This document shows, in pieces, positions 12,410 to 27,768 of a stretch of DNA of 64,000 bases. The translations under genes and the position numbers were made by a program. The DNA is from Rhodothermus marinus DSM 4252 (GTDB taxonomy: Bacteria; Bacteroidota; Rhodothermia; Rhodothermales; Rhodothermaceae). Position 1 is the first letter of the stretch. Each line of letters opens with the position of its first letter. The notes beneath the pieces are model-generated. The model ran no database searches and was not told the origin of the DNA. It saw only the letters and a program-made list of their open reading frames with translations. Location of the stretch: NCBI RefSeq assembly GCF_000024845.1, contig NC_013501.1, positions 376,001 to 440,000 on the forward strand, written 5' to 3'.

Positions 12410-13453
12410 ATGGGAAGCGCTCGGAGTACGATTCGGGATGTGGCCCGGGCGGCCGGTGTGTCGATTTCGACCGTCTCGCTGGTGCTCAACAACAAGGGCA
12501 ACGTCAGTGAGGCGACGCGCCGGCGGGTGTTGAAGGTTGCCCGAGAGCTGGGTTATGTGCCCTCCCGCGCGGCGCGCGACCTGTCGCTGCAGCGCACCGG
12601 CAACGTGGGCTTCGTGCTCCGCGAAGATCACTTCACCCGGAGTGAACCGTTTTACACCTACATTTTTCTCGGGACCGAATTCGAAGCGCGGCTGCATAAC
12701 CTCTATGTACTGCTGACCACCATTCCGCGGGATTATCGCAGGGGCGAGCATACGCCGCGCTTTCTGCGGGAGCGAAGCGTCGACGGTCTGCTGATCGCGG
12801 GCAAGGTCAGCGACGTGTTTCTGGAGGAGGTGCGGGCGATGAAGCTGCCCACCGTGTTGATCGATTACGAGGCGGAAGGTTTTCCGGCGGTGGTGATCGA
12901 CAACCAGGGAGGCGCCCGCGTGGCCGTCGAGCACCTGATCCAGCAGGGACACCGGCGCATTGCCTTTGTCGGCGCCGACATCCGGCATCCGAGCATTGCC
13001 AATCGGCTGGAAGGCTACCGGATCGCGCTGGTGCGGGCCGGGCTGCCGATGGATCCGGCGCTGGTGCTGGTTGAGGACGAAGCCGAGCCCACGCGGGCGA
13101 CGGGCCAGCGGCTGGGTGCGCGACTGCTGGCGCTGACGGAGCGTCCCACGGCCGCCTTCTGCGCCAACGACGCGCTGGCGCTGGGCGTGATGGAAACACT
13201 GCTGCAGGCAGGGCTCCGTGTGCCCGACGATGTGGCCCTGGTGGGCTTCGACGACGTGCAGGGAGCGGCGCAGGCGCCGGTGCCGCTTACCAGCGTGCGC
13301 GTCTTCAAGGAGCAGATGGGCGAGCTGGCCATGCGCCACCTGGCCGAACGGATCGGTCCGGAGCAGACCCGCCGCCCCTATGCCCGCGGCCAGCACACGA
13401 TCGTGGCCCCCACCGAACTCGTCGTGCGCGCTTCGTCGGTAAAAAATGCATGA
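12410..13453 (+). CDS. LacI-family transcriptional regulator
   Basis: A 347-residue DNA-binding regulator. The N-terminal helix-turn-helix (about residues 8-28, IRDVARAAGVSISTVS) is followed by the hinge helix (PSRAARDL) that inserts into the operator minor groove. A periplasmic-binding-protein-like effector domain occupies about 65-340 (GLLIAG, HRRIAFVG, FCANDALALGVM, DDVALVGFDD). It sits at the head of the carbohydrate region, so it most likely represses the downstream secreted protein, TonB receptor operon and perhaps the GH97 gene. Candidate operators with the family's central CG or GC lie at 13485-13496 and 32755-32768. The effector sugar is unknown. Confidence 0.9.
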   Translation: MGSARSTIRDVARAAGVSISTVSLVLNNKGNVSEATRRRVLKVARELGYVPSRAARDLSLQRTGNVGFVLREDHFTRSEPFYTYIFLGTEFEARLHNLYVLLTTIPRDYRRGEHTPRFLRERSVDGLLIAGKVSDVFLEEVRAMKLPTVLIDYEAEGFPAVVIDNQGGARVAVEHLIQQGHRRIAFVGADIRHPSIANRLEGYRIALVRAGLPMDPALVLVEDEAEPTRATGQRLGARLLALTERPTAAFCANDALALGVMETLLQAGLRVPDDVALVGFDDVQGAAQAPVPLTSVRVFKEQMGELAMRHLAERIGPEQTRRPYARGQHTIVAPTELVVRASSVKNA

Positions 13454-13574: not shown

Positions 13575-15123
13575 ATGAAGACGATGCTACAACACACGGG
13601 TCGGATCGGGCAGGCGCTCTGGTTTGCCCTGATTCTGGCAATCGGCGGCTGGAGCATGACCGCGCAGGCGCAGCAGACGCTGCTGGACCTGCTGACGGCA
13701 GATTCACCCATGAATCTGCTTTCGGACGGGGGATTTGAGTCGGGTTTGCCGAGTTACTGGGAACCGGTGGGCGATGGGGCGGAGTGGACGCGGGAGCGGT
13801 CGCGCACGCCGGAGTGGAGTTTGAAGCTCAGCGGGACGGGGGCTTCTTCGTGGGTGCAGTCGGAGGCGATTCGGAACTGGACGCCCCGGATTCCGGGGAA
13901 TCTGGAGCTGGTTGTGGGCGGCTGGGTGTGGACCGAAGGGGTGAACACCAATCCGCAGACGGACGAGGAGAAGTTTCAGCTGGTCTTTACGTTTTACAAC
14001 AGTGCGGGTCAGGATTTGCTGGGCGGTCCGCTGGTGATCGACGTGCCGCAGGATCAGCCGTCGACAGGCGGATGGGTTCAGATCGACAACACGTCGCTGG
14101 GTTCGTTGATTTTGCCGGAGGATGCGACCAGTGTTCGGATCGAGTTTCGGAAGGGTTCGCAGGCGACGGGTACGGTGTATCTGGACGATGTGTTTGTGCG
14201 GAAGGCGGATCCGAATGCGGAAGGCTGGGAGGGGGGACTGGTTTAACCCGAATGCGGATGTGAGCGGGGGTTGGTATTACTGGTGGCCGGATTTTCCGCG
14301 GGGGTTGGCGGGCTGGCCGGCCGATCAGGAGTTTGCGGTGACGGTGACGGAGTCGGATGCGCACCGTGGGCGTCGTTCGTTGCGGATTGAGGATTTGCAG
14401 GGGACGGCGCAGTACGAGGCGGTGGCGATCAGCGAGCGGGTGCCGGTGGTGGCGGGTGAGCCGGTGCTGGTGAGTTTCTGGGTGCGGTACGAGGGGGTTT
14501 TGAGTCCGGAGACGATCGGTGAGGGGAACAACAACATTGGGTTGACGGCGCTGTGGTACAATCAGATGGAGAGTGGTGCGGCGGGTTGGGGAGAGATTGG
14601 GGGAGTGGACATTCGGCTCAATGGGGAGTACAACGAGCAGGTGATTCCGTTGGCGGCGCGGGAGGATTCGACGGGATGGCGGCAGTATGCGTTTGTGGTG
14701 TATCCGAAGGAGGGGGCGGTGGGGATGGAGTTGCGGTTGCGCTACTGGCATGAGTTCACCGGCACCACCTACTGGGATGACGTCAGTATCGTGCGCATCG
14801 GTGGTAGTGCGTTGTTGCCCACCGGCGTAAGCGAGGAAAGTGCGGTGGAGCGGCCGCAGCGCTTCCTGCTCCATGCGAACTACCCGAACCCGTTCCGTCG
14901 CAGCACGACGCTGTCGTTCTCGCTGCCTGAGCCCACGCGGGTCACGCTGGCGGTGTACAACCTGCTGGGCCAGGAAGTGGTCACGCTGATCCGGGACGAA
15001 GTGCTTCCGGCCGGTACGCATCGGGTGGTGTTCGACGCGCGCGACCTTCCGGCCGGTCTCTATCTGTACCAGCTTCGGGCCGGTCGGTACGTCGAGACCC
15101 GCAAGATGCTGCTGGTGAAGTAG
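13575..15123 (+). pseudogene. Secreted T9SS-tailed protein with carbohydrate-binding-like modules, frameshifted at a G6 run
   Basis: Frame 1 runs 13575-14246 (223 residues) with a signal peptide ending AQAQ and a beta-sandwich-like module (SDGGFESG...YWEPVG, YLDDVFVRK). It stops early after a G6 run (14231-14236). One base fewer there joins it smoothly to the next frame (GDWFNPNADVSGG...), which continues to 15123 with a second sandwich module (YWDDVSIVRIG) and a C-terminal type IX secretion sorting domain (NYPNPFR, YNLLGQEV, LPAGLYLYQL, TRKMLLVK). Restored length is about 515 residues. It would be exported and anchored or released at the surface, perhaps binding glycans. Roughly 13.7-14.75 kb uses G- and T-ending codons unlike its neighbours. 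Sequencing error, phase variation and true decay are all possible. Confidence 0.75.
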
Positions 15124-15133
15124 TCCGGCTGCA

Positions 15134-15179
15134 GGCCGGGGGCCGCCTATGCCTATCGGGCGGCCCCCGGCCCCTTTTG
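15134..15179 (+). terminator. Strong rho-independent terminator
   Basis: A perfect 14-bp GC stem (15134-15147 with 15159-15172, GGCCGGGGGCCGCC) is followed by CCTTTTGT. It ends the transcript of the T9SS-tailed gene and insulates it from the TonB receptor operon. Confidence 0.85.
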
Positions 15180-15214
15180 TCCTGTTTTCCAGAAGCTGCT
15201 GGCGTTGTCGAACG

Positions 15215-17881
15215 ATGACCGGACTTGTAAAGCGTGGCACGGGCTGGATCGGGTTGCTCCTGCTGCTGAGTGCCCTGCCGCTCCGGGCGCAGACGACAGG
15301 AAAGATCGTCGGGCGCGTGACCGACGCGCAGACCGGCGAGCCGTTGCCCGGCGTGAACGTGGTGATCCTGGAGACGCAGCAGGGCGCTTCGACCGATGCC
15401 GACGGCTACTACGTCATCCTGAACGTGCGGCCGGGCACCTACACGCTCCGGGCCTCCATGGTCGGCTTTACGCCGCAGGTGGTGCAGGAAGTACGCGTGC
15501 AGATCAACCTGACCACCGAGGTCAACTTCACGCTCCAGGAGGAGACGATCACCGGCCAGGAGGTGGTGATCACGGCCACGCGCCCGCTGGTGCAGCGTGA
15601 CCTGACGGCCACGGCGGCGGCCGTCTCCCGCGAAGAGCTGGCCGTGTTGCCTGTGGAGAACTTCACGGACGTGGTGAACCTGCAGGCGGGCGTCGTGGAG
15701 GGGCATTTCCGGGGCGGCCGAATCGGGGAGGTAGCCTACCTGGTCGATGGCGTCCAGATCAACGACGTGTACGACCGTTCCTTTGCTTTTCAGGTCGAAA
15801 ACAACGCAATCCAGGAAATCGAGGTCATCACGGGCACCTTCAACGCCGAGTACGGAAGCGCTCAGTCCGGCGTGGTCAACATCGTGACCCGCGAGGGAAG
15901 CGAGCGCTATCAGGGATCGCTGGGGGGCTATGTGGGCGACTACCTGACAACGGCCACCGACCTGTTCATGGGTCTGGAGCGCATTTCGCCGCTTCATGCC
16001 CGCTCGATCCAGGGAGACCTGAGCGGTCCGCTGATTCCGGGCTATTCGAACGTGACCTTCTTCGTGGCGGGGCGCTATGTGCACAACGACGGCCACCTGT
16101 ACGGCCGCCGGATCGTGCTGCCGGTCGATCAGGACGACCCGCGGGCGCAGTACGTGACGGTCGATGGCCGCCAGGTCTTTGTGCCGGCGCTGGGCGACTC
16201 GGCGCTGGTGCCCATGAACTGGAGTGAGCAGCACACGCTGCAGGCCAAGCTGACAGCCCGCCTTTTCGGACAGCACAAACTGACGCTCAGCGGGCTCTGG
16301 CAGGGCGACCGGGGCAAGAACTACAACCATCTGTTCCGCTACAACCCGGACGGCACCCCGACGGTCTATGGCCGCTCGCGCTCATTGCTGGCCACCTACA
16401 CGCACATCTTTTCATCGCGCACGTTTGCCGAACTGAAAGGCGCCTATTTCACCAATGAAGTCCGGGAGTACGTCTACGAAAATCCGCTGGACCCGCGCTA
16501 TCCGCGGGACGATGCGTTGCGGCTGCTGGGCGGCAACTTCTCGTTCTACCGGGGCGGTGCCATCATGCGGCATTTCCGGCGCAGGACCGAGACGTTTACG
16601 GCCCGCTTCGACATCACAAGCCAGGTGACGCTACGCCATCAGGTGAAGGCCGGCGTGGAGTTCAAACAGCACACGCTGACGGTGCGCGACTTTGAGGTCA
16701 AGCGCAACCCGTCGACGGGCTTCCAGCCGGCCATTCCGCCCGTGCACACGCCCGACCACGTCTACTATCACAAACGGCCGATCGAACTGAGCGCCTACGT
16801 GCAGGACAAAATGGAATTCGATTATCTGGTCGTGAACGTGGGCCTTCGGTTCGATTTCTTTGATCCGCGCGCTGAGGTGCTGGAGGATTTCAGTCGGCCA
16901 CGCACGTCGCCGCGTCGTCCGGCCCCGGTGCGCTGGCAGCTTTCACCACGACTGGGCCTGTCGTTCCCGATCAGTCAGAACGGCGCCGTGCGGCTGGCCT
17001 ACGGGCATTTCTTCCAGATGCCCGCCTTCGACTACCTGTACACGAACGCCGACTACATCTACGACCCGGAGCGGGGGCTGAGCCGGGCGTTCGGCTATGC
17101 CGGACTGGAGCCCGAGCAGACTGTCGCCTACGAGATCGGCCTGCAACAGGCGTTCTCCGAATTGATCGGACTGAATCTGGTGCTCTACTACAAAGACATT
17201 CGCAATCTGCTGGGCACGCGTATCGAAGTGATTGCCCCGGGTTTTGATGAGCCGTTCCAGCTCGAAAAGTACGGCCGCTATGTGAACCGGGACTACGGGC
17301 AGGTCAAGGGCTTTCTGGTGTCGCTGGAGCGTCGCATGGCCGGCGGTTTCGGACTCGGCATTGATTACACCTTCCAGATTGCCCGGGGCAATGCGAGTGA
17401 TCCGCGGGCCGTGCTCATCGACGAAATGTCGGGGATCGAGCCGGAAAAGCAACTGGTACCGCTCGACTGGGACCGGCGCCACCAGCTCAATACGAGCCTG
17501 ACCGTGGGCGAAGCGGGGCGCTGGACCGTGACGCTGGTGGGACGCCTGGGCTCCGGACTTCCCTACACGCCGTCGATTGCTGACGAACGCATCGGCGTGG
17601 AAAACTCGGCCCGACGGCCCGGCTTCGTACAGTTCGACCTGTACGCCAGCCGTCTCTGGAAGCTCGGCTCCGTAGGGGTGCAGCTTTTCGCCCGGGTCTA
17701 CAACGTGTTCGACCATCGCAATGAAATCCAGGTGTACACCGATACCGGCCGCGCTTTCCCGAACCTGCGCTACTACTCCGGCGAGCCGCAGGGATTGAAT
17801 TCCAAGGAGGAATTCCTACGGCGGCCCGATTTCTATTCGGCGCCGCGGCTGGTCAACATCGGCATGAACGTAACCTTTTAG
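15215..17881 (+). CDS. TonB-dependent outer-membrane receptor with CarboxypepD_reg-like domain (SusC-like)
   Basis: Imports a ligand across the outer membrane using TonB energy. From ATG 15215 (888 residues) there is a signal peptide (ending PLRAQ) and a carboxypeptidase-regulatory-like beta-sandwich (about 27-115, GKIVGRVTDAQTGEPLPGVN). The plug domain follows (about 120-235, VVITATRPL...EVITGTFNAEYGSAQSGVVNIVT), then a 22-strand-type barrel ending in a terminal Phe (NIGMNVTF), the outer-membrane assembly signal. The open frame extends to 15149, but that start lies inside the preceding terminator. It heads an operon: the next gene starts 7 bp after its stop. There is no SusD partner; a 1097-residue secreted protein takes that place. 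Confidence 0.9.
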   Translation: MTGLVKRGTGWIGLLLLLSALPLRAQTTGKIVGRVTDAQTGEPLPGVNVVILETQQGASTDADGYYVILNVRPGTYTLRASMVGFTPQVVQEVRVQINLTTEVNFTLQEETITGQEVVITATRPLVQRDLTATAAAVSREELAVLPVENFTDVVNLQAGVVEGHFRGGRIGEVAYLVDGVQINDVYDRSFAFQVENNAIQEIEVITGTFNAEYGSAQSGVVNIVTREGSERYQGSLGGYVGDYLTTATDLFMGLERISPLHARSIQGDLSGPLIPGYSNVTFFVAGRYVHNDGHLYGRRIVLPVDQDDPRAQYVTVDGRQVFVPALGDSALVPMNWSEQHTLQAKLTARLFGQHKLTLSGLWQGDRGKNYNHLFRYNPDGTPTVYGRSRSLLATYTHIFSSRTFAELKGAYFTNEVREYVYENPLDPRYPRDDALRLLGGNFSFYRGGAIMRHFRRRTETFTARFDITSQVTLRHQVKAGVEFKQHTLTVRDFEVKRNPSTGFQPAIPPVHTPDHVYYHKRPIELSAYVQDKMEFDYLVVNVGLRFDFFDPRAEVLEDFSRPRTSPRRPAPVRWQLSPRLGLSFPISQNGAVRLAYGHFFQMPAFDYLYTNADYIYDPERGLSRAFGYAGLEPEQTVAYEIGLQQAFSELIGLNLVLYYKDIRNLLGTRIEVIAPGFDEPFQLEKYGRYVNRDYGQVKGFLVSLERRMAGGFGLGIDYTFQIARGNASDPRAVLIDEMSGIEPEKQLVPLDWDRRHQLNTSLTVGEAGRWTVTLVGRLGSGLPYTPSIADERIGVENSARRPGFVQFDLYASRLWKLGSVGVQLFARVYNVFDHRNEIQVYTDTGRAFPNLRYYSGEPQGLNSKEEFLRRPDFYSAPRLVNIGMNVTF

Positions 17882-17888
17882 TGCGGGC

Positions 17889-20800
17889 ATGATGCGGGTA
17901 TCTGCAGGACGGTTTCGGGGTATCGTGTTGCTGGCGGGCTGGCTGCTGGCCGTGCCGTCGCTGGCGCAGCGCACACCCGATCCGAACAAAGGTGATCCCC
18001 GGCTGACGCAGTGGGGCATCATGGACGGCAACCGGGTGCGCACGCTCTATGCCAACCACGGCGAGGTGGCCCGCTGGCCCGATCAGCCTTCGGGCGAGTG
18101 GCCCAAGGGCTCCGGCCATTCCTACGTGGACGGCGTGGCGCTGATTGTCTCGGCACGGACGCAGGACAGCCAGGGCCGCACGATTTACCCCATGAGCACG
18201 AACTACCGGGAGTTCATCGACCGCGACCCGGTCACCAAGCTGCCCTGGGGCTGGGCGCCGCTTCCCGGCTATTCGAACCCGCGCCAGTCGTCGCCGGCCC
18301 GCAGCGACGACCCGAGCACTTGGCCCACCGAGTGGCCCGACCGTCCCATTGAATGGGCGGGCTACTGGAACGGCTACTTCGGTCGGGGCATCATGAATGC
18401 CGACCTGGAGACCTACTTCGTCTTCGACGACGCACACGACTTCGAATGGACGCAGCCACCCCACCGCTTCTTCCCCTGTCGAAACGATACCACGCGCGGT
18501 GGACTCGGCATGGAAGTCGCCGCGCGGGGCTTCCAGTGGACGCACGTGCTGGCCCAGGACGTCATCTTCTGGCACTACGAGATCACGAACGAATGCGACG
18601 TTTTCTATCCGGACATCTTCTATGCCCAGTACATCGACTGGGGCGTGGGCGGCACCGACGACTCGGGCGATGACGAAGGAGCCTACAACACGCGGCTCGA
18701 CCTGGCCTTTGCCTGGGACTTCGACGGAATCGGCACGCCGGGTCAGTGGGGACCGGTGGGCGTTGCAGGCTATGCCTTCCTGGAATCGCCCGGCAACCAC
18801 ACGGACGGCATCGACAACGACCAGGACGGCATCACCGACGAGCGGCGCGACAGTGGTCCCGGTCAGCTCATCGAAGGTCAGGAAAACATCCGGGCCTATC
18901 TGGAGCAGCATTACAACCTGCAGGACTTCGAACGCTTCTACGGGCCGCTGGAATTGCGTCCGGCCTACCGGGCCGGCCGCTGGTGGACGGGCGACGAGAA
19001 CCTGACCTGGGTGGGCTTCACCGATCTGAACGGGAACGGCATCTGGGATCCGGGCGAGCCGACCAACGACGACTGCGGCGAGGACGGAGTCTGTCCGGGC
19101 GATCCGGGCTACAACGGTGCCGATCGGGGCGAGACCGACGGCCGCCCCACACCCGGCGAGCGTAACTTCGACGCGACGGACAAGGACGAGTCGGACCAGA
19201 TTGGTCTGACCGGCTTTGAGATCTTCGATGTGCACCGTTACGAGCTGATCGACGACGAGGAGGACTATCGGGTCTTTTCGCGGGCGCTTCCGCCGCTGGA
19301 GGACATCCTGCTCGAAGGCGGGCGCAACCTGGGCATGTTCTTCTCGTCGGGACCTTTCCCGTTGCAACCGGGCCAGACCGAGCGCTTCTCCATGGCCCTG
19401 CTGTTTGCCGGCCACGACTTCACGGATCCGCGCAACATGGAAAACACGTCGCTGGCCCGGAAGAAGGAGACCGTGCAGCAGATCTACAATGCGAACTATC
19501 AGTTTGCCCGGCCGCCTGACAAGCCCACGCTCATTGCCATTCCGGGCGACCGTCAGGTGACGCTCATCTGGGACGACGTGGCCGAGCGCTCGTTCGATCC
19601 GTTCCTGCGCGAGAACGACTTCGAGGGCTATCTGATCTATCGCTCCAGCGAGCCCAACTTCAACGAGAACTTCCTGATCACCGACGCCTACGGCACGCTG
19701 ACCTACCGGAAGCCGATCGCTCAGTTCGACCTGAAAAACGGCATTCGCGGGCTCCATCCGGTGGCCGTCAACGGCGTGCACTTCAACCTGGGCAACGATA
19801 CGGGCCTGCGGCACGTCTACGTCGATCGCGACGTGCAGAACGGCCAGACCTACTACTACGCCGTGGTGGCCTACGATCGGGGCTATGTGGCCCGCGACGA
19901 AAACGGCGACATCGTGGTAGATCCCGAGGGCTTCATCCGGGGCATTGCGCCGAGCCTGACCACGGCCACGATCAAAACCGATCTGGCCGGACAGGTGGTT
20001 TCGCTCGACATCAACACGGCCGTGGTAACGCCCCGGGCGCCGGCGGCCGGCTACGTGCCTCCCGAAGTGACTGCGTTCGAGCGTCAGACGATCGGCACGG
20101 GCTCGGTCGATCTACAGCTGGCCGCACCCGAGGCCGTGCAGGAAGGTGCCACCTACGAGGTGGTGTTCGAGAATCCGTCGCTCTGGCAGAACGCGCCGGA
20201 GGTCCACTACCGCGTGCAGCGCGAGACGGGCGAGGTGCTTCGGGAGGGGACCCTGCGGGCGGGGCTGAACGAACTGGCCGTGCTGGAAGGCGGCTGGGTG
20301 CTGACGCTCGATGAGCCGGCCGGCGTCAGCATCGACGGTAGCTCACTGACTTTCACCGACGAGCAGACGACCTACGCGGGCATCGTGCAACCGGCTTCGA
20401 CCAGCTCGGTGGTGGGCACAGCACGGTACGTGCCGCTCCCGGCCGATTTCGAAGTGCATTTTACCGAGACGTTTGCCGACACGTCGCTGCGGCTGGCGCT
20501 GGGTATGCGGCAGATCCCCACACCGTTCTACATCGAAAACCTGACCACGGGCGAACGGCAACCGTTCATCATCGTCGAAGACCGGCCCGAACTTCAGAAC
20601 GGACAGTACGATCACGGCGACCTGATCATCCTGGTCATGGGCGAGACGCCCGATAGCGAGCCGCAGATGCAGGGAGGGCGCTGGCGGGCGTCCTGGGCCA
20701 TTCGCTTCCTGCCGCCTGACCCGGTGGCGGAGCCGGACAAACCCGACCGGCCGCCACGGCCCGGCACGAGCTTCCGGTTCCGGACGATCAAGCCGTTCCA

Positions 20801-21182
20801 GACGGGCGACCGGATCCGGTTTACCATTCGGCCGCCGGCCTTCGACGCAAGCAAAGCACGCCACGACCTGCGCAACATCTATGTGGTGCCGAATCCGTAC
20901 GTGGCGACCAGTACGTTCGAGCCGTCGAGCGTCTATCGCATCGGCCGGGGCGAGCGGCGCATCTACTTTATGAATCTGCCGCCCGAGTGCACGATCCGCA
21001 TCTACACGCTTTCGGGCCAGCATGTGCAGACCCTGGAGCATCGCGGCGGCATCGACAACGGCCAGCTGGCCTGGGATCTGACCACCAAGGACGGAATGCA
21101 GCTCGCCTACGGTGTCTACATCTTCCATGTGGAAGCGCCAGGCGTGGGCGAGTACGTCGGACGCTTTGCGGTCATCAAGTAG
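17889..21182 (+). CDS. Large secreted protein with Fn3-like region and T9SS-like C-terminus
   Basis: A 1097-residue exported protein (signal peptide ending PSLAQ) of unknown function. Residues about 295-315 and 375-400 carry Asp-rich loops (DGIDNDQDGITDE, DLNGNGIWDPGE) resembling calcium-binding thrombospondin-3 or dockerin-like loops. About 530-690 reads as a fibronectin type III region (VTLIWDDVAERS, GYLIYRSSEPNF, GQTYYYAVVAYD). The last hundred residues (NIYVVPNPYV, IRIYTLSGQHVQTL, YGVYIFHVEA) look like a type IX secretion sorting tail. It is encoded between a TonB receptor and a PorV-like protein with gaps under 10 bp, so it probably works at the cell surface with them, perhaps as a substrate-capturing partner in place of SusD. 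Confidence 0.8.
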   Translation: MMRVSAGRFRGIVLLAGWLLAVPSLAQRTPDPNKGDPRLTQWGIMDGNRVRTLYANHGEVARWPDQPSGEWPKGSGHSYVDGVALIVSARTQDSQGRTIYPMSTNYREFIDRDPVTKLPWGWAPLPGYSNPRQSSPARSDDPSTWPTEWPDRPIEWAGYWNGYFGRGIMNADLETYFVFDDAHDFEWTQPPHRFFPCRNDTTRGGLGMEVAARGFQWTHVLAQDVIFWHYEITNECDVFYPDIFYAQYIDWGVGGTDDSGDDEGAYNTRLDLAFAWDFDGIGTPGQWGPVGVAGYAFLESPGNHTDGIDNDQDGITDERRDSGPGQLIEGQENIRAYLEQHYNLQDFERFYGPLELRPAYRAGRWWTGDENLTWVGFTDLNGNGIWDPGEPTNDDCGEDGVCPGDPGYNGADRGETDGRPTPGERNFDATDKDESDQIGLTGFEIFDVHRYELIDDEEDYRVFSRALPPLEDILLEGGRNLGMFFSSGPFPLQPGQTERFSMALLFAGHDFTDPRNMENTSLARKKETVQQIYNANYQFARPPDKPTLIAIPGDRQVTLIWDDVAERSFDPFLRENDFEGYLIYRSSEPNFNENFLITDAYGTLTYRKPIAQFDLKNGIRGLHPVAVNGVHFNLGNDTGLRHVYVDRDVQNGQTYYYAVVAYDRGYVARDENGDIVVDPEGFIRGIAPSLTTATIKTDLAGQVVSLDINTAVVTPRAPAAGYVPPEVTAFERQTIGTGSVDLQLAAPEAVQEGATYEVVFENPSLWQNAPEVHYRVQRETGEVLREGTLRAGLNELAVLEGGWVLTLDEPAGVSIDGSSLTFTDEQTTYAGIVQPASTSSVVGTARYVPLPADFEVHFTETFADTSLRLALGMRQIPTPFYIENLTTGERQPFIIVEDRPELQNGQYDHGDLIILVMGETPDSEPQMQGGRWRASWAIRFLPPDPVAEPDKPDRPPRPGTSFRFRTIKPFQTGDRIRFTIRPPAFDASKARHDLRNIYVVPNPYVATSTFEPSSVYRIGRGERRIYFMNLPPECTIRIYTLSGQHVQTLEHRGGIDNGQLAWDLTTKDGMQLAYGVYIFHVEAPGVGEYVGRFAVIK

Positions 21183-21191
21183 AAAACCACC

Positions 21192-22232
21192 ATGCAGACG
21201 GGCATACGACAGGGGCAATGGCTGGCCGCGATCGGCCTGGCGCTGGTACTGGCGGTGCCGACTCGGGCACAGACCGTCTCGAAGGCGGGCACCGTGGCCG
21301 GCGACTTTCTGCAGATCGGCGTGGGCGCTCGTGCGATGGCCATGGGCGGCTCGTTCGTCGCAGCGGCCGACGACGCGTCGGCGCTCTACTGGAATCCGGC
21401 CGGACTGGCCCATCTGGAGGGCGGCGAGGCCATGGCCGTGCACAGCCGCTGGCTGGCCGACGTCAGCTTCGACTACCTGGGGGCCGCGTTGCGCCTCGGG
21501 ACGCTGGGTACGCTCGGCGTCTCGGTCACGATGCTTTCGGTGCCGGACATGCTCGTGCGCACCGAAGACCGGCCGGAGGGTACCGGCGAATGGTTCGATG
21601 CCGCCGACCTGGCCATCGGGCTGTCCTACGGCCGCTTCATCACCGACCGCTTCGCCATCGGTGCCACGGCCAAGTTCATCCAGCAGCGCATCTGGCACAG
21701 CTCGGCCGTGGGCTTTGCCGTGGATCTGGGCGTGCAGTTCCGCACCGACTTCTTTGGCGGGCTGACGCTTGGGGCGGCCGTCTACAACTTCGGCACCGAT
21801 ATGCGCATGAGCGGTCGGGATCTGCGTACGTTTGTCGATCCGGATCCCACCCGCGAGGGCAACAACAATCGCATCCCGGCCAACTACGAAACGGATAGCT
21901 GGAGTCTGCCGCTCAACTTCCAGTTCGGTGTGGCACTGCGTCCCGTTCAGACACGCATGCACCAACTGCTGCTCACGGCCGATGCGCTGCACCCTTCGGC
22001 CAACTACGAAAGCGTCAACGTCGGCATCGAGTACGGTTTCCAGCAGCGGATCTTTCTGCGCGGTGGCTACCACGCGCTGTTTCTGCCCGGGGCCGAGGGC
22101 GGGCTTTCGGCCGGGCTGGCCGTGCATCAGGTGTTGCCCTACGCGGGCGGACTCGCCAAACTGGAGTACGCCTACCGCGACAGCGGCCGGCTCGGTGGCG
22201 TGCATATCGTAGGCATCGGCATTACGTTCTGA
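21192..22232 (+). CDS. PorV/PorQ family outer-membrane protein
   Basis: A 346-residue FadL-like beta-barrel protein. A signal peptide (ending TRAQ) is followed by the family signature GVGARAMAMGGSFVAAADD...YWNPAGLA. Alternating beta strands follow to a terminal Phe (IVGIGITF) suited to BAM-dependent insertion. PorV proteins shuttle type IX secretion cargo to the attachment complex. Here the gene is embedded directly after a T9SS-tailed protein, so a dedicated export or attachment role for that protein is a reasonable inference. It is part of the operon: 9 bp from the upstream gene and 3 bp from the next. Confidence 0.85.
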   Translation: MQTGIRQGQWLAAIGLALVLAVPTRAQTVSKAGTVAGDFLQIGVGARAMAMGGSFVAAADDASALYWNPAGLAHLEGGEAMAVHSRWLADVSFDYLGAALRLGTLGTLGVSVTMLSVPDMLVRTEDRPEGTGEWFDAADLAIGLSYGRFITDRFAIGATAKFIQQRIWHSSAVGFAVDLGVQFRTDFFGGLTLGAAVYNFGTDMRMSGRDLRTFVDPDPTREGNNNRIPANYETDSWSLPLNFQFGVALRPVQTRMHQLLLTADALHPSANYESVNVGIEYGFQQRIFLRGGYHALFLPGAEGGLSAGLAVHQVLPYAGGLAKLEYAYRDSGRLGGVHIVGIGITF

Positions 22233-22235
22233 CCC

Positions 22236-23561
22236 ATGCGCCGCCTCTTCCGACATCGCTGCTGGATCGGGCTGCTGGCCGGGGTGCTTCTGCTGGCCGG
22301 CTGTCATCGTCCGGCACCGACGCCCGTGCCGGAAAACGGCAGGGTACGGCTCGTCTACTGGACGGCCCCCAATCCTGACGAGCTGGCACTGGCCCGTGAG
22401 CTGGTGGCCGAGTGGACGGCGGCCAACCCGGACGTCGAGGTGATCGTGCAACCCATCCCGGCCGGACAGTCCAGCGAGGAGGTGCTGCTGGCCGCCGTGG
22501 CCGCGGGCACGACGCCCGACCTGTGCTCGAACATCTGGCCGGGCATCGTCGAGGATTTCGTCGAGGCCGGGGCGCTCGTGCCGCTGGATCGCTTCCCGGA
22601 CTTCGACTCGCTGCTCGAAGCCCGCATCCCCGAGACGGTGCGCGAGCCGTTCCGCTCACGCGACGGGCACTTCTACCAGCTCCCCTGGAAGACGAACCCC
22701 GTCATGATGTTCTACAACGTGCAACTGTTGCGGGAAGCGGGGTTCGAGCGGCCGCCGCGCACCTACGGCGAGTACCTGGAAGCCGCCCGCCGCGTCACGG
22801 CCGACACCGACGGCGACGGACTCATCGACCGCTGGATGGGCTATCGCGACATCCGTCCGATCTGGTGGCAACGGTACTTCGACTACTATGCCTTTTACAT
22901 TGCCGCTTCGGGCGGGCGTACGCTCTTCGACCGAGAGGGTCGGCTGGCCGTCGACACGGCCGCTTCGAACCGGGTGTTCGATTTCTTCGCCCGCCTGTAT
23001 GCCATGGGCGCCTTCCCGAAGGCCGTCTGGACCAGCGCCGGAAGCCGCTTTCTGAAGGGCCAGCTCGCCACCGATTTCACCGGCCCCTGGCACCTGATCT
23101 GGCTGGAAAAACATGCACCACCGACGCTGACCTACGACGTGGCGCCGATTCCCGTGCCGGACGACCACGAAGGGCCGGTTTATACCTACGGCGACTACAA
23201 GAACATCGTGATCTTTTCGACGACGCGCCATCCGGACGTGGCCTGGCGGCTGGCCCGCTTTCTGGTGTCGCGCGAGGCCGACCGACGGCTGCTGGAACGC
23301 ACGCGCCAGATTCCCGTGCGTCGGGGCCTGCTCGACGATCCGTACTTCGCGCCCGTGTTCGAGCGCTATCCGATCCTCCGACGCTTTGCCGAACAGGCCG
23401 CCTACACGCGGAGCGTCGATAGTGCCCCTGATCTGAAAGAAATCCTGGACGCGTTCGCGCAGGAGTTCGAGGCGGCCGCCGTCTTCGGCGTGCGCTCGCC
23501 CGCCGAGGCGACCCGCCGCGCGTTGCGTCGCATTCAGATGATCCTGGACTGGAATGCCTGA
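22236..23561 (+). CDS. Sugar ABC transporter substrate-binding lipoprotein (family 1)
   Basis: Binds a sugar outside the inner membrane and delivers it to the permeases encoded next. The 441-residue product has a lipoprotein signal peptide with lipobox LLAGC (Cys23). The two-lobed binding fold is indicated by VRLVYWTAPN, the IWPGIVEDFVEAGALVPLD segment (shared by MalE/UgpB-type proteins) and the hinge-region YQLPWKTNPVMMFYN. Its stop overlaps the first permease start by 8 bp, showing translational coupling. The ligand is unknown; the GH130 genes downstream suggest a mannoside or related oligosaccharide. Confidence 0.9.
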   Translation: MRRLFRHRCWIGLLAGVLLLAGCHRPAPTPVPENGRVRLVYWTAPNPDELALARELVAEWTAANPDVEVIVQPIPAGQSSEEVLLAAVAAGTTPDLCSNIWPGIVEDFVEAGALVPLDRFPDFDSLLEARIPETVREPFRSRDGHFYQLPWKTNPVMMFYNVQLLREAGFERPPRTYGEYLEAARRVTADTDGDGLIDRWMGYRDIRPIWWQRYFDYYAFYIAASGGRTLFDREGRLAVDTAASNRVFDFFARLYAMGAFPKAVWTSAGSRFLKGQLATDFTGPWHLIWLEKHAPPTLTYDVAPIPVPDDHEGPVYTYGDYKNIVIFSTTRHPDVAWRLARFLVSREADRRLLERTRQIPVRRGLLDDPYFAPVFERYPILRRFAEQAAYTRSVDSAPDLKEILDAFAQEFEAAAVFGVRSPAEATRRALRRIQMILDWNA

Positions 23562-24456
23562 GCTTCGAGCGACATTACGGCGCCTGCAGATCCGCCTGCG
23601 TGGCGAGCGGAGCGGCTACGTGCTCGTGGCCCCCTACCTGCTGCACATGGCCGTGTTTTTCGGCTATCCGCTGCTGTTCGCGTTTGTGCTGATGTTTCAT
23701 CGTTGGGACATCGTCACGCCCATGGAGTTCGTGGGGTTGAAGAACTTCGTGCGGCTGGTGCGGGACGATCTCTTTTTCCGGGCGCTGCTCAACACGGGTA
23801 TTTTTCTGACCATCCACATTCCGCTGCAGATCATTGTGGCGCTGTTTTTTGCGGAGCTGCTGAATCGTCCGCTCAGGGGGCGGGGCTTTTTCCGCGCGGC
23901 CTACTTCATGCCCGTGGTGGTTTCGGGGGTGGTCATCACGATCCTGTTTCAGCAACTGTTTGCCTTCGACACCGGACTGATCAACCGGATGATCCGGGCG
24001 CTGGGTGGGGAGCCGGTGCCCTGGCTCGTGTCGCCGGCGCTAGCCATGCCTTCGATTGCCCTGATGGCGACCTGGAAGAACGTGGGACTCTACATCGTGC
24101 TGTTTCTGGCCGGGTTGCAGCACATCCCGAAGCACCTGTACGAGGCGGCCGAACTGGACGGGGCCAACGCCTGGCAACGCTGGTGGCACGTGACGCTCCC
24201 CATGCTGAACCCCACGATGGTCACGGTGGTGGTGCTCTCGACGATCGGCGGGTTTTCGCTGTTCATCGAACCCTACATCCTGACGGGCGGCGGACCGCTC
24301 AACGCCACGCTTTCGGCCGTGCTCTACATCTACAACCAGGCTTTCTACTTCAACCACATGGGCTATGCGGCCGCACTGGGCTTCTGCTTTGCCATCGTGA
24401 TCTTCGTCGTGGTGCTGTTGCAGCGACGCTTTGTGGAAACCGACACCTGGAGCTGA
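23554..24456 (+). CDS. Sugar ABC transporter permease (MalF/UgpA type)
   Basis: A 300-residue inner-membrane permease with six hydrophobic segments. The cytoplasmic EAA loop (YEAAELDGANAWQRWWHVTL) contacts the ATPase. The size and the MLHMAVFFGYPLLFAF start match MalF/UgpA-type half-transporters. It begins inside the end of the binding-protein gene and is followed 3 bp later by its partner permease, so the three are one transport unit. The ATPase is probably the MalK-like gene at 30857. Confidence 0.92.
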   Translation: MPELRATLRRLQIRLRGERSGYVLVAPYLLHMAVFFGYPLLFAFVLMFHRWDIVTPMEFVGLKNFVRLVRDDLFFRALLNTGIFLTIHIPLQIIVALFFAELLNRPLRGRGFFRAAYFMPVVVSGVVITILFQQLFAFDTGLINRMIRALGGEPVPWLVSPALAMPSIALMATWKNVGLYIVLFLAGLQHIPKHLYEAAELDGANAWQRWWHVTLPMLNPTMVTVVVLSTIGGFSLFIEPYILTGGGPLNATLSAVLYIYNQAFYFNHMGYAAALGFCFAIVIFVVVLLQRRFVETDTWS

Positions 24457-24459
24457 ACC

Positions 24460-25269
24460 ATGCGCCGGCTGGGACTTTACCTGCTACTCGGGATCGGGCT
24501 GGTGGTGTTCGCCTATCCGTTCGTCTGGATGGGCATCGCCACGTTCACGCCGGAGGCGGAGATTCCCGAGCTGACGCTGCTCCCGTCGCGCTGGACGCTG
24601 GACCACTACCGGCTCGTCTTCGAGCGCATTCCGGTCTGGCGCGGGTTGCTCAACAGCCTGGTGGTGGCGCTGGCCGTGACGGCTTCGGTGCTGGTCTTCA
24701 CGTCGATGGCCGCCTACGCGCTGGCCAAACTGCACTGGCGCGGCCGCGAGACGGTCTTTTCGATCATTCTGTTCACGATGATGGTGCCGTTCCTGCTGCT
24801 GCTCATCCCGCTCTACACGCTGGTGGTGCGGCTGGGGTGGACCGATTCGCTGCTCGGGCTGATCGTGCCCTTCATGATGAACGCCACGGGCGTGCTGATC
24901 CTGCGCCAGAGTTTTCTGACGATTCCGCGCGATCTGATCGATGCGGCCCGGATCGACGGTTGCGGCGAGCTGCGCATTCTGTTTACGATCATCTGGCCGC
25001 TTTCGGTGCCGGCGCTGGTGACGGTGGGGCTGCTCACGTTCATCGGGAGCTGGAACGAGGTGCTCTGGCCCATTATCGTGGTGCGCGAGGTGCAGTGGAT
25101 GACGCTCCCGCAGCTGGTGGCGCTCTTTGCCGTGGGCGGCGGGGCCGAAGGCCAGCTCGGTCCGCAACTGGCGGCGGCCTTCCTGCTGGCGTTGCCCATC
25201 GTGCTGGCCTACCTGTTCTTCCAGCGCTACTTCATCCAGAGTTTTGCAACCGGTGGACTGAAAGGCTGA
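24460..25269 (+). CDS. Sugar ABC transporter permease (MalG/UgpE type)
   Basis: A 269-residue second permease subunit with six transmembrane segments (YLLLGIGLVVFAYPFVWM at the N-terminus). The EAA loop near residue 160-185 reads DAARIDGCGELRILFTIIW. It forms a heterodimeric channel with the preceding protein. The start ATG at 24460 lies 3 bp after the upstream stop. Confidence 0.92.
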   Translation: MRRLGLYLLLGIGLVVFAYPFVWMGIATFTPEAEIPELTLLPSRWTLDHYRLVFERIPVWRGLLNSLVVALAVTASVLVFTSMAAYALAKLHWRGRETVFSIILFTMMVPFLLLLIPLYTLVVRLGWTDSLLGLIVPFMMNATGVLILRQSFLTIPRDLIDAARIDGCGELRILFTIIWPLSVPALVTVGLLTFIGSWNEVLWPIIVVREVQWMTLPQLVALFAVGGGAEGQLGPQLAAAFLLALPIVLAYLFFQRYFIQSFATGGLKG

Positions 25270-25279
25270 GGACGTTTTT

Positions 25280-26722
25280 ATGCGACGGCTTCTGTGGATC
25301 ATCCCGGGCTTTTTTGTGCTGGCGGCGGCCGGTTGCCTGACCGCACCGGAAAGCCGTCCCGTCCCGGATACGCTTCCCATCAACCTGGCGCATCTGGAGC
25401 ATCTGAGCGAAGACGTGGTGCGGGGCGACTCGGTGCTGCGCATCGTGCACATCTACGCCGAAGCGCCGGATTACCACTGGGTGGACGACCCCGACGAAGG
25501 GACCGCCTGCGTGGACGACGTGGCCCGGGCGGCCGTGCTCTACCTGCGACTCTACGAACTGACGGGCGACGAAGCGGTGCGGCGCACGGCCGAAAAGCTG
25601 CTGCGCTTTGTGCTCTACATGCAACGGGCCGACGGGCTGTTCTACAACTTCGTCTATTCGAACCGACTCGACATCAACACGACGCACCAGAACAGCCGGG
25701 CCGAGCCGTTCGGCTGGTGGGCCGGACGGGCCGTGTGGGCGCTGGGAACGGCGGCCGACGTGCTGCGGCGGGCCAATCCGCGAATGGCCGCACAGGCGGC
25801 CGCGGCGGCACGGCGGGCGCTGGTGCACCTGGACCGCACCTGGCTGGTTCATTACCCGCGCACGCGGCGCGTCAACGGGCGCACCGTGCCGGAATGGCTG
25901 GTGTACCGCTACGGCTCGGACGCTTCCAGCGAGCTGCTGCTGGGGCTGGTCCGGCTCCAGAAGGCCGCGCCCGATACGTCGCTGGCCCGCATGATCCGAC
26001 AACTGGCCGAGGGGATGGCGCGCATGCAGTACGGCTCGATGGCGCGCCACCCCTACGGCGCGCATGCGTCCTGGATCGACACCTGGCACGGGTGGGGCAA
26101 TGCGCAGACGCAGGCGCTGGCCGAGGCCGGCTACCTGGAATCGGCCATTTACGAGGCCGAGCACTTCTACCCGCGGCTGCTCGTCTACGGCTGGATGTAT
26201 GCCATGTCGCTGGACGATTCGACGCAGGTGCAACGCTACGAACAGATCGCCTATGCCGTGCGCTGCGTGGCCGTCGGGCTGATCCGACTCTACGAGCAGA
26301 CCGGCGACGTGCGCTATGCCACAATGGCGGGGCTGGCCGCAAGCTGGCTGACGGGCAACAACGAGGCGGGCGTGCCCATGTACGATCCGGCCACCGGACG
26401 CGGCTACGACGGCATCACGGGACCGGGCACGGTCAACCGCAATGCCGGGGCCGAATCGACCATCGAGGCGCTCTACACGATGCTGGAGGTGAGCCGGCAC
26501 GAGCCGGCCCGGCGCTGGCTCTACGCACGGGGCGCCCCGCCCGTTGAGGTCACGCACGAAGGGACGCGCTACGCCTACCGCGTCTTCAGCGTGCAGGAAA
26601 AAGACGCGACGCGCTCGGTGGCCGTCGTGCTCAACCTGAGCGCGGAGCGGATGGAGCTGCTGGAAGGGGAGGCGCTGGCGCGGTTTCTCCGGGAAGTAAC
26701 CAGCGAACCCGTTCACCACTAA
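25280..26722 (+). CDS. Lipoprotein with an alpha/alpha six-hairpin glycosidase-like fold
   Basis: A 480-residue lipoprotein (lipobox AAAGC, Cys19). The sequence is rich in regularly spaced helices, with Trp/Tyr- and acid-rich loops (DYHWVDDPDEGTACVDDVAR, AEPFGWWAGRAVWALG, WIDTWHGWGNAQ). Such loops line the active site of (alpha/alpha)6-barrel glycosidases and epimerases. I do not assign a GH family. Its place between sugar-ABC permeases and two GH130 genes suggests it trims or recognises the oligosaccharide at the periplasmic or surface face before import. The C-terminal 60 residues look like a small beta domain (YRVFSVQEKDATRSVAVVLN). Confidence 0.7.
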   Translation: MRRLLWIIPGFFVLAAAGCLTAPESRPVPDTLPINLAHLEHLSEDVVRGDSVLRIVHIYAEAPDYHWVDDPDEGTACVDDVARAAVLYLRLYELTGDEAVRRTAEKLLRFVLYMQRADGLFYNFVYSNRLDINTTHQNSRAEPFGWWAGRAVWALGTAADVLRRANPRMAAQAAAAARRALVHLDRTWLVHYPRTRRVNGRTVPEWLVYRYGSDASSELLLGLVRLQKAAPDTSLARMIRQLAEGMARMQYGSMARHPYGAHASWIDTWHGWGNAQTQALAEAGYLESAIYEAEHFYPRLLVYGWMYAMSLDDSTQVQRYEQIAYAVRCVAVGLIRLYEQTGDVRYATMAGLAASWLTGNNEAGVPMYDPATGRGYDGITGPGTVNRNAGAESTIEALYTMLEVSRHEPARRWLYARGAPPVEVTHEGTRYAYRVFSVQEKDATRSVAVVLNLSAERMELLEGEALARFLREVTSEPVHH

Positions 26723-26736
26723 AAACGGAAAGGCTT

Positions 26737-27768
26737 ATGCCACAGGATTCCGAAGCCGTTACGTTGTTTCGACGCCATCCGGAACCCATCCTGACGCCGA
26801 TGCCGGAGCTTTCGTGGGCGTCGGGGGCTGTGTTCAATCCGGGAGCCTGGTACGACGGTACGCGCGTGCACCTGCTGGTGCGCGGCGTGCCGGCAGGCTA
26901 CCGGCGCATCCGACTGACCGATACGCGTCCGGGCGAGCCGGAATGGGGCTTTGAACCGTACGTGTCGTACATCGGCTATGCCGAAAGCACCGACGGCGTG
27001 CACTTTTCCGTCCGGCCCGAACCGTTGATCCGGCCCGACGCGCCCTACGATCACTTCGGCGTCGAAGACCCCCGCATCAGCCGCATCGACGACCTGTACC
27101 TGATCACCTACACGGCACTGGGGGCGCCCGCTTTTGCCCGACCGGGTTGCGTGCGCATCGGGCTGGCTTCAACCCGGGATTTTCAGTCGGTCACAAAGCA
27201 CGGCATCGTGGGACCGGACACGACGGACAAGGACGCCGTCATCTTTCCCCGGCGCATTCGCGGGCGCATCGCCATGCTGCACCGCATCGTGCCGTCCATC
27301 CAGCTCATCTACTTCGACGACCTGGAGCAGCTTTTCCATCCACCGAAGGCGCTGTGGGAACGACACCTGGCCAGGCTGGACGAGCACGTCGTGCTCCGGC
27401 CCGAATTCCCCTGGGAGGCCAAAAAGATCGGGGCCGGTCCCACGCCGATCGAGACCCCGGAGGGCTGGCTGCTCATCTACCACGGCGTGGACGCGCAGCA
27501 CGTGTACCGCATGGGCATGGCGCTGCTGGATCTGGACGATCCGCGTCGGGTGATCGCCCGCACGCCGGAGCCCGTGCTGGAGCCCGAGCTTCCGTTCGAG
27601 TGCGAAGGCGATGTGCCGAACGTGGTCTTCCCGGAAGGGGCCGTGGTGATCGGTGACGAGCTGCTGGTCTACTACGGGGCGGCCGATCGGACGATCGGCC
27701 TGGCGCGGGCACCCCTTTCCGATGTGCTTGCCCACCTTCGCGCCTGCTCGGTTCGTGTGTCTTCCTGA
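26737..27768 (+). CDS. GH130-type glycoside phosphorylase/hydrolase, first copy
   Basis: A 343-residue cytoplasmic five-bladed beta-propeller enzyme of the GH130 type (mannoside phosphorylases and mannosidases). Asp111 in FGVEDPR matches the family's catalytic proton-donor position. Other family features are the N-terminal FNPGAWYDG, the KDAVIFPRRIRGRIAMLHR segment and LIYHGVD. No signal peptide is present, consistent with action on imported sugar. A good ribosome-binding site (GGAAAGG) precedes ATG 26737. Whether it is a phosphorylase (phosphate-binding Arg/His needed) or a hydrolase is not decided here. R. marinus is known to carry GH130 mannosyl-glucose phosphorylases, but I cannot say this is one of them. 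Confidence 0.82.
   Translation: MPQDSEAVTLFRRHPEPILTPMPELSWASGAVFNPGAWYDGTRVHLLVRGVPAGYRRIRLTDTRPGEPEWGFEPYVSYIGYAESTDGVHFSVRPEPLIRPDAPYDHFGVEDPRISRIDDLYLITYTALGAPAFARPGCVRIGLASTRDFQSVTKHGIVGPDTTDKDAVIFPRRIRGRIAMLHRIVPSIQLIYFDDLEQLFHPPKALWERHLARLDEHVVLRPEFPWEAKKIGAGPTPIETPEGWLLIYHGVDAQHVYRMGMALLDLDDPRRVIARTPEPVLEPELPFECEGDVPNVVFPEGAVVIGDELLVYYGAADRTIGLARAPLSDVLAHLRACSVRVSS

Follow-up and report, generated by a model that had tools for sequence, protein, structure and literature searches.

A recurrent gene triad of a TonB-dependent receptor, a large secreted protein and a PorV-type barrel in Rhodothermus marinus: candidate core of a SusD-independent uptake system

The stretch of DNA analysed, called here the window, comprises 64,000 nucleotides of Rhodothermus marinus DSM 4252 (C1:376001-440000, in a genome of 3,386,737 bases with two contigs, C1 of 3,261,604 and C2 of 125,133). 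It contains three consecutive genes, all on the + strand, for a TonB-dependent receptor (R), a secreted protein (M) and a barrel of the PorV/PorQ family (V). Their open reading frames (ORFs) were 15149-17881 for R (910 residues, or 888 from the later in-frame ATG at 15215, the start used in the original prediction), 17889-21182 for M (1097 residues) and 21192-22232 for V (346 residues). The packed trio with gaps below 10 bp that had been claimed from the sequence was borne out, the intergenic distances being 7 bp (R/M) and 9 bp (M/V). We consider, with moderate confidence, that an uptake system working independently of SusD has this triad as its core in the outer membrane, and that in the window locus its substrates are glycans. 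Its features are the following:

15149..17881, + strand: R, TonB-dependent receptor, outside the SusC/RagA family by cut-off (Pfam, TIGR04056, BLAST)
17889..21182, + strand: M, secreted protein of 1097 residues (ORF, Pfam search, AlphaFold2 model)
17991..19499 (approximate), + strand: predicted N-terminal beta-supersandwich domain of M (VIA-align of the model)
19515..19886 (approximate), + strand: Fn3-like domain of M (alignment motif; weak profile match to a Fn3-like PDB entry, E 0.24)
20853..21179, + strand: C-terminal domain of M, M-tail class (tail-model comparisons)
21192..22232, + strand: V, PorV/PorQ-family outer-membrane barrel (NF033709; nearest solved chain PorV 6h3i)

Concerning the receptor, the domains CarbopepD_reg_2, Plug and TonB barrel were above the Pfam cut-offs, and the barrel of its relative in another genome (L113) matched the structures of the TonB transporters BtuB, PirA and FhuA with Z of about 20. 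The label SusC-like earlier given to R turned out to be loose: R missed the SusC/RagA family model TIGR04056 (76.4 bits versus a cut-off of 368), and when compared by BLAST with three SusC proteins of the genome it resembled them only in the N-terminal domain and the plug. As had been proposed, M occupies the gene place where SusD would stand. Glycan loci without SusD repeat the same module. No SusD was detected beside the triad: M matched no SusD family at E ≤ 1, and no PF14322 place of this genome was near the triad of the window. There were seven such SusD-like places, five of them above the cut-off, and each had another TonB-receptor match within about 4 kb, so that none is an orphan SusD. 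The original prediction had named SusD homologues serving R from elsewhere as a point that would count against it; no orphan was found among the seven places, while the sharing of a SusD with R is still compatible with the data.

The arrangement of the triad was then compared among genomes. Seven R-M-V triads (T1 to T7, with proteins M1 to M7, M1 being that of the window) were found in this same genome by PorV-family, M and R searches combined with gene calls. When GTDB genomes were searched with 14 aligned M proteins, at least 574 relatives were obtained, and the best 80 of them, which are relatives of M1, make up a first sample. A second sample consists of 80 places, mostly full-length, picked from the M matches listed in the phylum-wide survey described below; the two samples may share genomes. 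By record title, the best 80 belonged to Ignavibacteria and relatives, Calditrichota, Neomarinimicrobiota, KSB1, Kryptonia, Delongbacteria, Eisenbacteria, WOR-3, Rhodothermaceae and others. In this first sample R immediately preceded M in 73 of the 74 loci where this could be tested; the count was 72 found, 6 at a contig edge and 2 without R, to which L184 was added because its stop-to-stop frames overlap (R ends at 9861 and M starts at about 9902). V was adjacent to M in 74 of 78 loci (2 at an edge, 4 without adjacent V) and present somewhere in the locus in 77 of 78, with V after one gene in L131 and L135 and another order in L166. Of the 80 stretches in the second sample, 73 had R at most 500 bp upstream of M, and 75 had V downstream of it. 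The exceptions were three stretches with the order R-V-M, two in which M was preceded by a gap of 0.5-1.5 kb, and two with M alone. The permuted order occurred in L235, L237 and L239. A model of three SusDs of the R. marinus genome, which recovered a held-out SusD at 3e-67, found SusD in none of the 160 loci of both samples. Since the seven triads and the two samples of 80 loci show the same arrangement, it is not due to chance. The triad is a widespread module, whose gene order, distribution, predicted fold and tail class are established here.

The distribution of M relative to SusD was studied in 247 genomes from the GTDB phylum to which R. marinus belongs, taking E ≤ 1e-40 as a strong M match and PF14322 or PF07980 at E ≤ 1e-5 as SusD; at most three M candidates were scored per genome, and the top SusD counts per genome mean at least 12 and at least 9. 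A strong M occurred in 91 genomes and SusD in 131 (both in 49, M only in 42, SusD only in 82, neither in 74). Outside the class of R. marinus there were 45 genomes with strong M; PF14322 alone left 41 of them without SusD and the addition of PF07980 left 35, the other ten having one to three matches. As these ten exceptions hold so few matches, the result left our estimate of the proposed reading unchanged. Strong M was found in 6 of the 72 genomes with at least five SusD matches, all six belonging to the same class as R. marinus. Within this class, 39 of 46 strong-M genomes had SusD; therefore, the Rhodothermia mostly carry both systems, while the other M-bearing lineages have few or no SusD. 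According to passages of a 2023 metagenome study (PMC10576277), susCD was scarcely detected in carbohydrate gene clusters of Ignavibacteriales, and not in Ca. Kapabacteria. Many Bacteroidetes relatives probably use the trio for sugar capture and import where SusC/SusD is rare or missing.

The description of M as tailed for the type IX secretion system (T9SS) held in part, in that its tail is T9SS-like but divergent: M1 was not among the 49 matches of the genome to TIGR04183 (type A tail) at E ≤ 0.001, in which M5 and M7 were present. A model built from 14 M tails was compared with a model of ordinary tails. All 140 M tails of complete triads favoured the M-tail model (median 159 versus 17 bits), the high scores of M1-like tails being partly built into it. 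The tails of M4-M7, absent from training, scored 62.7-66.5 bits with this model and 10.9-30.7 with the ordinary one. Considering the genes of the R. marinus genome fetched by then, the seven M tails reached at least 62.7 bits and all other tails at most 32.2. In the loci of the first sample, the M-tail model was favoured by 0 of 53 tails of T9SS proteins with a carbohydrate-binding module (CBM-T9SS), 0 of 11 of CBM9-T9SS proteins and 1 of 16 of proteins of glycoside hydrolase family 16 (GH16-T9SS), some of the CBM and GH16 genes compared being cut by contig ends. From these scores it follows that within a single locus the CBM protein ends in an ordinary tail, and M has a tail of the special kind together with a barrel of its own. 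The M tails form a distinct class of probable T9SS tail, apart from the ordinary type A tails. Comparison by hhalign with eight ordinary tails of the genome gave a probability of 93% over 53 columns, and the tails of PorZ and PorU matched the M tail weakly.

Concerning the barrel, V scored 211 bits with the PorV/PorQ family NF033709 of NCBIfam (cut-off 90), and was below the equivalog cut-offs of PorV, PorQ and PorV2 (70.8 versus 250 bits for PorV, NF033710). The proposal of a dedicated PorV stood insofar as V is additional to a separate, true PorV gene that adjoins PorU (292.6 bits with NF033710, cut-off 250); the dedication itself rests on the tail class and the gene adjacency. The genome also encodes SprA (2631 bits). 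Alternatively, V could be a FadL-type channel of the same operon, unrelated to T9SS. This would agree with a sub-threshold Toluene_X/FadL match of V (20.4 versus 29.7 bits) and with weakly FadL-like genes next after V in two triads of the genome (14.9 and 15.6 versus 29.7 bits), but it is very unlikely in view of the PorV/PorQ score well above cut-off, of PorV as the nearest solved chain (6h3i, E 5.8e-6), and of the fact that V accompanies the M-tail class and not the ordinary T9SS proteins of the same loci. A different gene pair was observed at L079:5258-7854, where a 527-residue protein with an ordinary T9SS-type tail is directly followed by a weakly PorQ-like barrel (81 bits with the PorV/PorQ family, cut-off 90), possibly a PorZ/PorQ-type pair without receptor.

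M carries a signal peptide ending in SLAQ without lipobox cysteine, as judged by eye, and no such cysteine was seen by eye at the signal peptide ends of M1-M7. A Pfam search with M gave no family at E ≤ 1 apart from a sub-threshold C-terminal FlgD_ig match, and by sequence profile there was no solved relative below E 0.24. The AlphaFold2 model of residues 27-1097 (89 sequences) was mostly beta, with a mean confidence (pLDDT) of 91.3 and a predicted template-modelling score (pTM) of 0.85. Its N-terminal part of about 500 residues is predicted to form a beta-supersandwich, as in the N-domains of sugar phosphorylases. In VIA-align, the best 40 rows for this domain (Z 17.0-19.9) were mostly N-terminal parts of GH15/GH94/GH116-type enzymes, including dextran dextrinase (Z 19.9, root mean square deviation (rmsd) 2.9, 253 residues aligned), glucodextranase (Z 18.6, rmsd 3.0, 237 aligned) and laminaribiose phosphorylase (Z 18.1, rmsd 3.7, 273 aligned), and the match was repeated with the model of the L113 relative (Z 20.3, rmsd 3.0, 251 aligned). 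We take the matched region to be the N-terminal beta-supersandwich of GH15/GH94 enzymes; Pfam holds the name GH94_b-supersand for GH94. In the Foldseek order by E-value, chains of PorZ and fibronectin were on top. No SusD chain was among the PDB rows listed for the model, although such lists do not prove a different fold.

A fold common to M and glycan enzymes shows no function, and it can be asked whether the N-terminal domain of M is a surface enzyme (an unclassified glycosidase, lyase or esterase) instead of a binding protein or lid. The fold matches to carbohydrate-active enzymes, among them the GH174 fucanase 9k1g (Z 14.4, rmsd 4.0, 239 aligned), and the many invariant acidic residues of M would fit an enzyme. 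However, many of these acids belong to DxDG-like loops reminiscent of calcium sites, one and the same type of M is found with differing enzyme sets, and the strongest matches presumably do not correspond to the catalytic domains of those GH15/GH94-type enzymes. An enzymatic M is thus held to be improbable.

The seven triads of the genome helped to define which parts of the module are constant. R, M and V all split into identical groups, {1,2,3}, {4,5} and {6,7}. The alignment of the M4-M7 profile with the M1-type profile was confined to the C-terminal 105 residues, approximately (hhalign 99.3%, E 7e-21), which leaves R, V and the tail as the constant parts. Judging by sequence, the N-terminal part of M can be exchangeable, as the alginate- and pectin-type M proteins resemble M1 detectably in the tail only. 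The settings of the triads were the GH130/sugar importer locus of the window, a starch locus, a pectin-type locus and the published alginate locus, plus three in other surroundings. T2 (starch) is accompanied by two GH13 enzymes, a LacI regulator, a peptidyl-prolyl isomerase (PPIase) and a T9SS protein that matches the starch-binding module CBM20; T4 is next to a GH28 gene; and T5 is the alginate locus, with the genes in the published order tonB, hypA, hypB.

Concerning the neighbours in the 80 loci of the first sample, the recurrent order was LacI, CBM protein, R, M, V, importer, glycosidases. The clusters of neighbours were CBM-T9SS (53 loci), sugar-binding protein (31), permeases (30 and 27), LacI (22, or 23 by a model of relatives of the window regulator), GH3 (19), sodium symporter (18), GH16-T9SS (16), GH130 (13) and GH94 (8), as assigned from one representative each, or from models of R. 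marinus genes for GH130, LacI and the binding protein. A SurA-like double PPIase was beside the triad in 28 loci (for instance, L065:11171-12829), and is perhaps its private chaperone. A sugar regulator, importer, kinase or enzyme was present in 65 of the 80 loci; of the other 15, several of them short contigs, nine had nothing of the kind and six had only a CBM-type gene.

In the window, the triad is surrounded by these genes:

12410..13453, + strand: LacI-family regulator (Pfam LacI and Peripla_BP_3 above cut-off)
13575..15123, + strand: surface protein of carbohydrate-binding type with an ordinary T9SS tail, in two frames (13575-14246 and 14122-15123)
22236..23561, + strand: sugar-binding protein of an ATP-binding cassette (ABC) importer (SBP_bac_1 and SBP_bac_8 above cut-off)
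23554..24456, + strand: ABC permease, MalF type (BPD_transp_1 above cut-off)
24460..25269, + strand: ABC permease, MalG type (BPD_transp_1 above cut-off)
25280..26722, + strand: 480-residue protein, weakly GH88/GH127-like (sub-threshold Pfam; c12 by synteny with L113)
26737..27768, + strand: GH130 phosphorylase (Pfam 193 bits, cut-off 26)
27790..28902, + strand: GH130 phosphorylase (Pfam 89 bits, cut-off 26)
28899..30665, + strand: secreted 588-residue protein (no Pfam family at E ≤ 0.01)
30857..31981, + strand: ABC ATPase, MalK type (ABC_tran, OB_MalK and TOBE_2 above cut-off)
32780..34813, + strand: GH97 enzyme (Glyco_hydro_97, 381 bits)

With LacI, an ABC importer, two GH130 and GH97 in one cluster, the window locus qualifies as a polysaccharide utilisation locus, and from GH130 its substrate is most likely beta-mannosides. 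L113 has a nearly identical order (LacI, CBM protein, R, M, V, binding protein, two permeases, c12, GH130, GH130, ATPase). The 588-residue protein is distantly similar to the PPIase cluster found beside triads, with ten tblastn matches at 28-29 kb. In the protein encoded at 13575..15123, Por_Secre_tail was above and CBM_4_9 below cut-off. The relative of this split gene in L113 is one open frame of 493 residues, to which each half aligns in a different frame. In L273, from another Rhodothermus genome, the gene is broken at a different point by a 332-residue ORF, and that of a third genome (L275) is uninterrupted in the stretch fetched.

Several observations weigh against the triad being a dedicated uptake machine for glycans. 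M occurred without R or V in the fetched stretch at L163, L216 and L217 (L163 is a GH130/ABC locus). The curated T9SS tail match was missed by five of the seven M tails of the genome. SusD and M are not exclusive, as 49 of the 91 strong-M genomes have SusD, 39 of these 49 in the class of R. marinus. T3, T6 and T7 are among genes of FG-GAP/UnbV, TPR, cytochrome, amidase or beta-lactamase type. In a count of neighbour families in the R. marinus genome, 3 of the 7 triads scored, as did 3 of the 16 remaining regions with a TonB receptor and one of the two SusCD regions, a weak contrast; this count hardly discriminates, because its models came from M1-type loci, miss GH13, GH28 and lyases and may take some T9SS tails for GH16, and because the window region ended before its GH130 genes. 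Finally, a fused-chain prediction of the R barrel with the M N-domain of L113 (1198 residues) folded both parts (pLDDT 87.2) with a pTM of 0.57, from an alignment with 29 rows covering both parts and 24 covering M only, in which the R plug, the rest of M and V were left out. With such a pTM the placement of M on R is not confident, and contact is neither proved nor refuted. An earlier alignment for this prediction (A5, 133 rows) had been dropped, as its R-only rows put up to 193 residues in the M part.

The surroundings of T3, T6 and T7 would be expected if the triad were a general uptake module, with glycans as one of several uses and many triads serving proteins, peptides, metals or other substrates. 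The sole hint of sugar near these three was a T3 protein that matched a lambda-carrageenase propeller model (27.2 versus a cut-off of 26.8). On the plasmid (C2:8638-21093, L067-L068), a triad lies beside a beta-lactamase-type protein, an amidase and a FG-GAP T9SS protein with the borderline lambda-carrageenase propeller match, while T6, T7 and one SusC/SusD pair are close together (L073-L075, C1:2018000-2068000) among FG-GAP/UnbV_ASPIC, TPR and cytochrome c554-like genes. Against such a general role stand the sugar genes of 65 of the 80 loci, a count which speaks for the M1 type only, because those loci are M1 relatives. On the whole, a general module seems unlikely, with a chance that is nevertheless real.

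The lack of a confident R-M placement would also suit an arrangement in which M, as an exported protein that binds glycans or is structural, and V, as its shuttle, serve surface display by themselves, R being only co-regulated and importing oligosaccharides without touching M. Passages of the review PMC10202324 describe type B substrates clustered with cognate PorP/SprF barrels and the PorZ tail retained on PorQ, and mention no receptor with them. On the other hand, R remains in the locus under changed order (three R-V-M loci), and the distance correlation over 140 triads was 0.91 for R-M (partial 0.68; R-V 0.56, M-V 0.12). This correlation was not taken as proof, because linkage and protein length alone could yield it. 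A display pair that makes no contact with R appears rather unlikely. The surface capture module originally suggested as an alternative to SusD is partly supported: it recurs in glycan loci without SusD, and the placement of M on R did not reach confidence.

The preferred reading, a SusD-independent uptake system, can be put as a sequence of steps, in which we infer T9SS export, docking on V, glycan binding and delivery to R. M would cross the inner membrane by its apparent Sec signal and, considering its tail and the SprA of the genome, the outer membrane via T9SS. Its C-terminal domain would be taken over by the adjacently encoded V and stay docked there, by analogy with the pairs PorZ-PorQ and type B substrate-PorP/SprF, V acting as shuttle and as membrane anchor of M in replacement of the lipid anchor of SusD. 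This anchor model is based on the clustering and retention described above, and on the suggestion, found in passages of the same review (PMC10202324), that cognate PorV-like barrels may shield tails from cleavage. The N-terminal beta-supersandwich of M would bind glycan at the cell surface and hand it to R, which would import it using TonB. In the window locus, the ABC importer and the two GH130 phosphorylases would finish the process inside the cell, most likely with beta-mannosides. A more ambitious version is plausible, at somewhat less than an even chance: R-M-V would be one stable machine, with T9SS-exported M anchored by its tail on a private PorV barrel as an exchangeable lid or delivery arm of the TonB transporter, and it would serve as a general glycan-uptake device of Fibrobacteres-Chlorobi-Bacteroidetes lineages with few or no SusD, the Rhodothermia keeping SusCD too.

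No paper naming the triad as a system was found in our searches of open-access full texts, several of which gave mostly unrelated results. The scarcity or absence of susCD reported for Ignavibacteriales and Ca. Kapabacteria (PMC10576277) raises the question of how these lineages take up oligosaccharides; the triad is a concrete candidate, open to gene deletion in a thermophile that can be cultured. It would supply non-SusD signatures for glycan loci where SusCD-based callers find little, and T9SS with cognate PorV-like barrels would gain a use beyond those known, the feeding of a transporter.

Compared with known systems, the triad recalls SusC/SusD in that R is a TonB-dependent transporter with a carboxypeptidase-like N-domain, a surface partner and a place in glycan loci. 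It differs in the score of R, which falls short of the SusC cut-off, in M, which matches no SusD family, is predicted to be mostly beta and lacks a lipobox, and in the additional PorV-type barrel. In passages of PMC9530828, the alginate locus of Rhodothermus marinus is described with tonB, hypA (T9SS type A tail) and hypB (PorV/PorQ family) in this order and is stated to be structurally identical in DSM 4252, hypA and hypB being called hypothetical and given no role. By profile comparison, the hypA relative of T5 has only the tail in common with M of the window. The Bacteroides cobalamin importer BtuB-BtuG is alike in joining a TonB transporter with a non-SusD surface partner, and its entries 8blw and 8p98 were among the structure matches of the L113 model. 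BtuG is a lipoprotein with a lid role, and a vitamin, cobalamin, is imported instead of a glycan; to our knowledge, BtuB-BtuG has neither a T9SS tail nor a cognate PorV barrel. We know of no TonB receptor that belongs to the T9SS pairs of protein and barrel. These pairs (type B-PorP/SprF, PorZ-PorQ and PorU-PorV, as presented in passages of PMC10202324) resemble the triad in that a PorV-like barrel, in many cases the product of a nearby gene, takes charge of the C-terminal domain of a secreted protein, and differ from it in that the M tails are separate from the ordinary type A tails.

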